Position numbers and translations under genes: made by a program. From Mogibacterium sp. (GTDB taxonomy: Bacteria > Bacillota > Clostridia > Peptostreptococcales > Anaerovoracaceae), in assembly GCA_017433975.1 (NCBI GenBank), contig JAFRGD010000017.1, forward strand, positions 62,001 through 126,000: a stretch of DNA of 64,000 nucleotides. Reading direction: 5' to 3'. Positions within the stretch are counted from its first letter, which is position 1; each line of letters begins with the position of its first letter. The notes under the pieces were generated by a model that had not been told where the DNA came from, searched no databases, and saw only the letters and a list, made by a program, of their open reading frames with translations. Of this stretch, positions 24,994-58,276 are shown piece after piece.

Positions 24994-25024
24994 GGTGAAA
25001 ATGGGGACGGTTCCGTTTTTCATC
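24994..25024 (+). repeat. 31-nt palindromic repeat A, copy 1
   Basis: First of five copies of a 31-nt imperfect palindrome: arms (G)GTGAAA and TTTCATC around a GGGGACGGTTCCG centre. It sits directly before the ATG of the DUF3343 gene and leaves that gene with no visible ribosome site. Confidence 0.8.
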
Positions 25025-40839: not shown

Positions 40840-40994
40840 CGGGTGCTGGCGGTGCGCCAAGGGGGCTTGCCGGCAGCCGGTCCTTAGCGATTCGCGAGTC
40901 CGTCACCGCAAACAAGGGTGAAGCGAGAGCTTAGGACCGCTGCGTTGCCGGCACGAGGCGCGAGCCGTACCCCTTGGCGCACCGCCAGCACCCG
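40840..40994 (+). repeat. Structured repeat B, copy 1
   Basis: A 155-nt element with 25-bp perfect outer arms (40840-40864 with 40970-40994), then a conserved core of about 105 nt containing TTGCCGGCAGCCGGT, CCTTAGCGATTCGCGAG, GAGCTTAGGACCG, TGCGTTGCCGGCACGAGG and GAGCCGTAC. The core matches copies at 43938 and 58071, whereas the arm sequence is unique to this copy. It starts 36 bases after the response regulator stop. Confidence 0.88.
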
Positions 40995-43937: not shown

Positions 43938-44075
43938 GCGTGGGACTGCCCGCAGCAGCGGCTTTCCGGCAGCCGGTGCTTAGCGATAAACGAGCCGGCG
44001 GCGAAGTTTGAGCTTAGCACCGTTGCGTCGCCGGAACGAGGCGAGAGCCGTACGCTGCAGCGGGCAGTTCCGCAC
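43938..44075 (+). repeat. Structured repeat B, copy 2
   Basis: A 138-nt element. Outer arms ACTGCCCGCAGCAGCG (43945-43960) and CGCTGCAGCGGGCAGT (44053-44068) pair in 15 of 16 positions and differ from the arms of the other copies. The core repeats GGCTTTCCGGCAGCCGGT, GCTTAGCGAT, GAGCTTAGCACC, GCGTCGCCGGAACGAGGC and GAGCCGTAC. It lies between alr and pyrB. Confidence 0.88.
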
Positions 44076-51505: not shown

Positions 51506-51536
51506 GATGAAACCGGGGACGGTTCCGGTTTTCACC
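51506..51536 (+). repeat. 31-nt palindromic repeat A, copy 2
   Basis: GATGAAA, CC, GGGGACGGTTCCG, GG, TTTTCACC: the CC/GG step pairs where other copies have TT/AA. It directly follows the lipoprotein stop. Confidence 0.85.
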
Positions 51537-51552
51537 AAAAGGAACAACAAAA

Positions 51553-51576
51553 GGCCGCGCTTGCGCGCGGTCTTTT
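51553..51576. terminator. Bidirectional terminator between lipoprotein and glutathione peroxidase genes
   Basis: GGCCGCGC and GCGCGGTC pair around TTGC, with TTTTCTT on the plus side and AAAA on the other. The genes on both sides converge on it. Confidence 0.8.
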
Positions 51577-51611
51577 CTTACGTCCGAAGTGAATGTACTT
51601 ATGTCTCAGGA

Positions 51612-51642
51612 GATGAAATTCGGAACCGTCCCCAATTTCATC
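51612..51642 (-). repeat. 31-nt palindromic repeat A, copy 3
   Basis: Inverted relative to copy 2. Arms GATGAAATT and AATTTCATC pair perfectly around CGGAACCGTCCCC. It abuts the stop of the glutathione peroxidase gene. Confidence 0.85.
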
Positions 51643-57995: not shown

Positions 57996-58026
57996 GATGA
58001 AATTGGGGACGGTTCCGGTTTTCATC
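57996..58026 (+). repeat. 31-nt palindromic repeat A, copy 4
   Basis: GATGAAATT, GGGGACGGTTCCG, GGTTTTCATC. The TT/GG step would give two G-U pairs in RNA. It begins two bases past the aldo/keto reductase stop. Confidence 0.85.
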
Positions 58027-58070
58027 TTTTACTGAAACTGACTCAGAGGTATTTACACTTTTTTAAAATC

Positions 58071-58208
58071 AAATAAACAGCGCCCTGGAAAGCGTACGGC
58101 TCTCGTCTCGTTCCGGCGACGCAGCGGTTCTAAGCTCTCGCTTCGCTCACGCTCGCGAATCGCTAAGAACCGGCTGCCGGAAAGCCGCTTTCCAGGGCGC
58201 TGTTATTT
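58071..58208 (-). repeat. Structured repeat B, copy 3
   Basis: In reverse orientation to copies 1 and 2. Outer arms CAGCGCCCTGGAAAGCG (58078-58094) and its perfect complement (58186-58202) extend into AAATAA/TTATTT. On the minus strand the core reads GGCTTTCCGGCAGCCGGT, TCTTAGCGATTCGCGAG, GAGCTTAGAACCG, TGCGTCGCCGGAACGAG and GAGCCGTAC. It lies between repeat A copies 4 and 5 and between convergent genes. Confidence 0.88.
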
Positions 58209-58245
58209 GTTTAATTCAGTGTACACATCCTTACCTTTTGAGAAA

Positions 58246-58276
58246 GATGAAAAACGGAACCATCCCCATTTTCATC
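58246..58276 (-). repeat. 31-nt palindromic repeat A, copy 5
   Basis: Reverse orientation. Arms GATGAAAA and TTTTCATC flank CGGAACCATCCCC, with one centre change (C to T) relative to the others. Confidence 0.85.

Follow-up and report, generated by a model that had tools for sequence, protein, structure and literature searches.

A palindromic MITE of gut Clostridia whose conserved centre may be a structured RNA domain

Introduction

MITEs of bacteria are usually viewed as decaying parasites. Other dispersed repeats share some of their properties: the bcr1 repeats of the Bacillus cereus group are multi-copy, about 150 bp long and structured, and have traits of mobile elements. The element that we describe here resembles them in these general traits. 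It also resembles prokaryotic MITEs such as QMITE2 of Coxiella burnetii, which has terminal repeats of 23-29 bp, target duplications of 7-9 bp, a core of 113-145 bp and a transcript predicted to form a stable stem-loop, and which belongs to a class thought to be mainly IS-derived (PMC10969869). The present element is likewise short, with terminal repeats, target duplications of that size range and a predicted folded transcript. Unlike the MITEs of the QMITE2 type, as described there (PMC10969869), it has a core that is conserved across genera and families while the ends and arms vary by genome, and its orthologous copies are constrained in place.

Like BOX, RUP and SPRITE of Streptococcus pneumoniae, the element is dispersed, folded and putatively mobile, and such repeats are at times nested in one another; BOX has the end modules boxA and boxC and a middle module, boxB, that may be absent or repeated (PMC3049150), whereas the present element keeps its middle and varies in its arms. 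With the REP palindromes of the GTAG and CGTC families it shares its palindromic form, and some REP dimers lie inside longer palindromes; however, REPs measure 20-40 bp (PMC3733652), and the size of our element does not fit a REP or a REPIN. MITEs are a known kind of element. To our knowledge, neither a pattern of conservation inverted in this way nor such a reach across families appears in the literature searched, which yielded no description of this element family, although open-licence full texts are weak evidence of absence.

Results

Three copies in the window

The window analysed is a stretch of 64,000 nucleotides from Mogibacterium sp. A preliminary description made from the letters of this DNA had placed in it three copies of a structured element with a shared core, and all three lie where they were placed and read as described. 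Their parts, and two neighbouring repeats, are as follows.

40841..40864, + strand: copy 1, 5' arm, 24 nt, fully complementary to 40970-40993 (sequence, fold)
40865..40969, + strand: copy 1, conserved core (P2-P4, GNRA loop GCGA, N/N' = C/G) (sequence, fold, covariance model)
40970..40993, + strand: copy 1, 3' arm (sequence, fold)
43940..43960, + strand: copy 2, 5' arm (sequence, fold)
43961..44052, + strand: copy 2, conserved core (GNRA loop GAGA, N/N' = G/C) (sequence, fold, covariance model)
44053..44075, + strand: copy 2, 3' arm (sequence, fold)
57996..58026, + strand: REP-like repeat family A, 31 bp, on one side of copy 3
58071..58094, - strand: copy 3, 3' arm (sequence, fold)
58095..58185, - strand: copy 3, conserved core (GNRA loop GAGA, N/N' = T/A) (sequence, fold, covariance model)
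58186..58208, - strand: copy 3, 5' arm (sequence, fold)
58246..58276, - strand: REP-like repeat family A, 31 bp, inverted, on the other side of copy 3

The covariance model described below matches the window exactly three times (40854-40980 and 43950-44063 on the + strand, 58196-58084 on the - strand), with E-values from 4e-14 to 3e-19, and the fold z-scores against 200 shuffles each are -10.0, -6.4 and -8.9 for copies 1, 2 and 3. The window copies have neither a common terminus nor a clear target duplication, for which reason the copies in this genome look old; terminal inverted repeats are not recognisable in most of them.

The core fold

Inside the outer arm, the core begins with a helix, P2, which is followed by an inner helix, GGYNCUU-AGC paired with GCU-UAGN'ACC, that contains a U.U mismatch. 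Next come a tandem GA/GA and a variable apical hairpin; the 3' strand has a bulge, CU or UU, and a hairpin of two or three pairs with a GNRA loop precedes the 3' arm. The pair counts and the covariance model were taken from one MAFFT alignment of 62 out of 74 non-redundant cores; the 74 are only those whose two half-motifs lie 21-45 apart, and the 12 cores left out have inserted hairpins or long or odd loops. Eight of the aligned copies come from this genome, and one of these is window copy 2 (L008).

None of the 62 copies departs from the U.U mismatch, from the A of the first GA or from either letter of the second; a GNRA loop is present in 61, and 90.3% of the cells of the named core structure are paired. 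The covariation of N with N', first read from the C/G, G/C and T/A of the three window copies, is borne out in the alignment (AU 43, GC 7, UA 4, CG 1, unpaired 7). Over the whole core, covariation amounts to 0.198 compared with 0.091 in shuffles, a value reached by none of 500 shuffles, and sliding the partners by one to three columns gives at most 0.083. In a larger set of 237 copies, 220 loops could be read; 213 of them are of the form G..A, and all 213 have a purine at the third position. The same set has 79 G.U and 39 A.C among its core pairs (one often-C.A column pair omitted); since the copies are related, neither the GNRA nor the G.U counts are independent. That column pair, 29/76, lies beside the covarying N/N' and is C.A in 28 of the 62 and 114 of the 237 copies, which is too frequent for noise. 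Extra hairpins occur at P2, in the apical loop or near P4 in L127, L128, L069, L073, L153, L159 and L095, including one with a UUCG loop and one long palindrome within a core.

At the gathering score, Rfam matched only tRNAs in the window and 11 loci, and a lax search (E up to 10) of the 3.3 kb that hold copies 1 and 2 returned a single weak match, outside both. The view that the element matches no known family holds for Rfam.

Copy number and distribution

Elements are about 100-224 bp long, non-coding and multi-copy, and they lie mostly between predicted open reading frames; an overlap with such a frame was seen in 44 of 113 copies, as judged by a crude ORF caller. Their own genome here (G000; 2.26 Mb in 34 contigs, 83% complete) has 24 matches to a pattern of the 5' half, of which 23 are real, L024 not being a copy, and 23 matches to a pattern of the 3' half; the reversed-pattern controls gave 0 for both. 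In 98 genomes from its family and order, a second pattern had no match at up to 3 mismatches. At least 118 matching stretches were found in other genomes in the genome_contigs collection, mostly of gut Clostridia. Among the matches listed, 43 of 80 carry Lachnospiraceae in their title, and the other titles include Clostridiales, Mogibacterium, Eisenbergiella and Bacillota, with many animal-gut sources; the titles are those given by the depositors, and a few of them (two "Muribaculaceae" entries) seem mistaken. When genomes of the class were searched with the covariance model, matches were obtained in 10 of 391, namely this genome and nine from one other family, with copy numbers that are lower bounds because at most nine candidates were scored per genome. 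Collections of phages, plasmids and viral contigs gave no match. L057, L128 and L156 are divergent relatives with an altered 3' half (e.g. GAACTTAGTGCCCGCTACGCTTTTT) and possibly form a subfamily.

Insertion anatomy

Complete elements in genomes G099 and G100 are about 224 bp long and have terminal inverted repeats of 24 bp; those in genome G102 have terminal repeats of 19 bp or more. The ends CACGGAAATCAATTTTCAGTCAG have 66 matches in G099 and 65 in G100 at up to 3 mismatches, with 0 in controls. Target duplications lie outside the arms. Among 36 complete copies of G099/G100, a few of which are one site counted in both genomes, an exact 9-bp target duplication flanks 8, one of 6-8 bp flanks 8 and none that the test used could recognise flanks 20, counts that stand without a control. 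In a mixed set of 119 copies, direct repeats of at least 7 bp are present at the arm ends of 15, compared with about 4 when flanks are swapped, and L104 and L152, which are counted in the 15, are artefacts of the palindrome.

The clearest insertion is L289. It is present in G100 as CTG-AGAAAAACG-element-AGAAAAACG-GCAGAG, the filled site being adjoined by a second, 10-base duplication, while the empty site in G099 reads CTG-AGAAAAACG-GCAGAG and contains neither arm. A single copy of the duplication and no arm at the empty site mean that the arms come in with the element. Less precise empty sites were found for L056/L089 (against L159), L090 (against L139, and the reverse), L002 (against L150) and L003 (against L051). 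The proposal that the arms are remade on insertion, in the sense of copying the target, is not supported: both arms are missing from these empty sites, and the orthologous copies mostly retain theirs. The empty sites also led us to reject the arms as target hairpins or as an inverted copy of the flank.

A short, non-coding, multi-copy and intergenic sequence with terminal inverted repeats, a target duplication and an empty site has the features by which MITEs are recognised, and by its anatomy and insertion the element is a palindromic MITE. The suggestion that it is mobile is therefore upheld by the 9-bp target duplications and the empty sites, as well as by ends that it has in common with an ISAs1 element. 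We also looked for an autonomous version beside the single terminal repeats of G099/G100, reading about 160 bases inward of each, and found none within that distance, where the 14 distinct ends run into neighbouring sequence or N runs.

A candidate mover of the ISAs1 family

The usual target duplication of ISAs1 elements is 8-10 bp. G102 has a 369-codon open frame for an ISAs1-family transposase (NF033564, 328.9 bits with a cut-off of 70; PF13808, PF01609). Read inward, CAGGACAAACGCATGAATG is the end of one flank of this gene, and the opposite flank is cut short by the contig start, at AACGCATGAATG, so that one of the two transposase-side ends is whole and the other incomplete. The CAGGACAAACGCATGAATG end, which matches in G102 only, also bounds core-bearing palindromes there. 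The element differs from the ISAs1 family in that it has no transposase gene and that the part of the IS that was read contains no core.

A longer pattern of the end has 43 exact matches in G102, and the 38 loci read, which cover 41 of the 43, have a core within 200 bp of the end in seven cases and no core in 31. In 14 of the 31 core-less loci the ends occur as facing pairs, 12 of which span no more than about 55-105 bp between their outer edges. These ends thus serve the IS, core-less hairpins and core-bearing elements alike, with the core as a passenger in a part of them. Eight further core-bearing loci of G102 comprise six with ends at 1-6 mismatches and two without any within 6. The core-less palindromes with ISAs1-type ends in this genome (L198-L205, L237-L263) are possibly a second, shorter MITE.

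Of 20 genomes searched, two gave a PF13808 match above cut-off: G102, and G008, which lacks the core. Among 12 core-bearing genomes, G102 passes, G099 has a broken piece and the other 10 have none. PF13808 gave 0 matches in this genome (83% complete), which implies that movement here is past or was due to an undetected enzyme. From the shared ends, the ISAs1-family transposase is likely to move the element in trans, and we infer that such movement may have taken place in the other genomes too, this one included.

Arms that change together

The complementarity of each arm to its partner, noted in the window copies, is general: the arm score has a median of 27 over 119 copies and of 9.5 (maximum 17.9) over 119 swapped-arm pairs, with 104 of the 119 copies above this maximum and 111 above the control's 95% point. 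The five lowest scores (8.5-11.6) belong to L094, L153, L005, L083 and L119, which include inserted-hairpin copies and one tandem copy. That arms are unrelated between copies does not hold for all of them: in the young-copy genomes the copies have arms in common, and some copies of this genome (L020, L023) have diverged arms in common. Arms in G102 reach about 80 bp, some with a terminal CAGGACAAA.

Fifteen of the 18 older-type copies of G099 were used to count arm changes, three misregistered copies and an arm-edge column being dropped. Cells that are changed on both sides and still paired number 33, compared with 9.4 in shuffles (maximum 22 in 2000), and mismatches occupy 9 cells, against 54.6 expected; six of the nine are G.T and three A.C. 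In the 36 young copies, 104 changes affect the 5' arm only, 83 the 3' arm only and 49 both (35 paired), where 25.7 on both sides were expected and two hypervariable columns contribute much. At L059/L097 the orthologous copy is inverted relative to the flanking genes between two species, with its arms kept and several arm pairs altered on both sides. We read this joint change as hairpin-templated correction combined with decay, with selection for pairing as a possible alternative. Arm mismatches overall have no excess of G.U over A.C (91 versus 75, p 0.24) and no strand bias. RNA selection is accordingly not supported for the arms, and it is suggested for the core alone. The earlier suggestion of a folded structure under selection is supported in that the fold of the core is conserved. 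The arms also provide a record, made by nature, of the way in which long inverted repeats remain matched while their sequence drifts.

Constraint on the core in place

Five orthologous copies of genomes G127 and G277, neither of which has a PF13808 match, differ in the core by 7 substitutions in 349 positions and one gap, while their flanks (200 bp on either side, arms included) have 203 substitutions in 1950 positions and 390 gap positions (Fisher p 1.4e-8). A core that changes more slowly than its flanks implies selection in place. Over 14 ortholog pairs, 48 core substitutions were counted against 100.4 expected at the flank rate, and ten of these pairs have 14 against about 72. There is no clear slowing in L002/L123 (15 versus 16.3), L108/L127 (4 versus 4.8), L127/L135 (6 versus 4.1) and L108/L135 (9 versus 3.5). 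L002 and L123 are probably separate insertions, and in L108, L127 and L135 different hairpins replace one strand of P2.

The 18 older-type copies of G099, three of them misregistered, have an end above the shuffled maximum (14 of 24 matches) on the 5' side in seven cases and on the 3' side in two; all 18 keep 45-54 of the 55 core positions of the G099/G100 reference. The small amount of change in most of the orthologous copies compared suggests that the conserved core is likely to be useful to the host.

Discussion

We consider it probable that the element is a MITE with young copies sitting in 9-bp duplications, with an ISAs1-family transposase as its likely mover in trans and with a centre that likely works in place as a structured RNA. 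A young copy would come to lie, arms included, between the 9-bp target duplications after an ISAs1-family transposase had mobilised the non-autonomous element in trans. Hairpin-templated correction, or selection for pairing, would then rewrite both arms together. The core would act post-transcription, perhaps by offering a processing site, or a binding site for a protein, on read-through RNA, as its GNRA loop and G.U excess may indicate. A MITE centre that is kept in place between species while the ends rot turns the question of whether bacterial MITEs contain selected RNA domains into one that is directly testable in culturable Lachnospiraceae.

A bolder reading, possible but tentative, is that an undescribed and widespread RNA family of gut Clostridia rides on MITEs, each insertion of which would plant a functional RNA domain in a new transcript, after which the arms would drift freely but self-correct and the host would keep the domain in place. 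If this is true, the transposon is a distribution system for one RNA domain.

It seems unlikely to us that the element is an ordinary ISAs1-derived MITE with no host function, in which the core aids mobility and conservation in place reflects recent insertion or gene conversion. The near-identical young copies in G099/G100 and G102 are what such a MITE would give, and the orthologs L274/L299 are conserved across their arms and outer parts as well. However, the core is kept beside a diverged spacer and locus-unique arms in L056/L089 as well as in L421/L431 and L423/L432, the last two pairs being from genomes without a PF13808 match, and it is also retained in the older-type G099 copies whose ends have decayed. 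In addition, the excess of core-less over core-bearing loci among those read in G102, 31 to 7, indicates that the core is hardly needed for mobility, unless all the core-less loci are later deletions.

Whether the core works as RNA or as DNA is the least certain part of the reading that we prefer. On the one hand, the core has both covariation beyond shuffles and RNA-type motifs, by which a structured RNA is recognised, and we favour that it acts as RNA when transcribed. On the other hand, its orientation to genes is random (32 ++, 37 --, 26 convergent and 18 divergent, with 21 more of the 134 at contig ends). Tandem spacers contain it 21 times in the same and 20 times in the opposite direction to the genes, 18 of 69 spacers with an element are convergent compared with 29 of 125 without, and 25 of 41 tandem copies are nearer the stop (p 0.21). 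A role as terminator or 3' UTR tied to gene direction was rejected, since a strand-bound 3' UTR role does not fit random orientation. Random orientation, the orthologous copy inverted in place at L059/L097 and arms without a G.U bias are all in line with a cruciform or single-stranded hairpin at the DNA level, whose core would be a binding site for tolerance or chromosome organisation and for which RNA would be irrelevant. We nevertheless regard this account as rather improbable, because stable DNA loops would permit pyrimidines too at the third GNRA position, where every one of the G..A loops has a purine, and because core G.U pairs outnumber A.C pairs, with the reservation that counts from related copies are not independent.

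Finally, it is very improbable that the core is a parasite entering the loops of pre-existing palindromes (REPINs or terminators), with the arms as target hairpins: two of the 23 copies in this genome, window copy 3 and L021, do lie inside inverted pairs of family A, and G102 has core-less palindromes with the same ends, but the target duplications lie outside the arms and the empty sites contain no palindrome, which contradicts this account for the sites tested. The position of copy 3 and L021 within family A pairs is best explained by the insertion of one repeat into the other or beside it. Family A, GRTGAAATYGGGGACGGTTCCGGWTTTCATC, is a second dispersed repeat, 31 bp long and REP-like, which is matched 36 times in the genome when up to 3 mismatches are allowed. 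It occurs solo or as inverted pairs 65-284 bp long, and in the window it is found at 25001, at 51506-51642 and at 57996-58276, the last being the pair that encloses copy 3.
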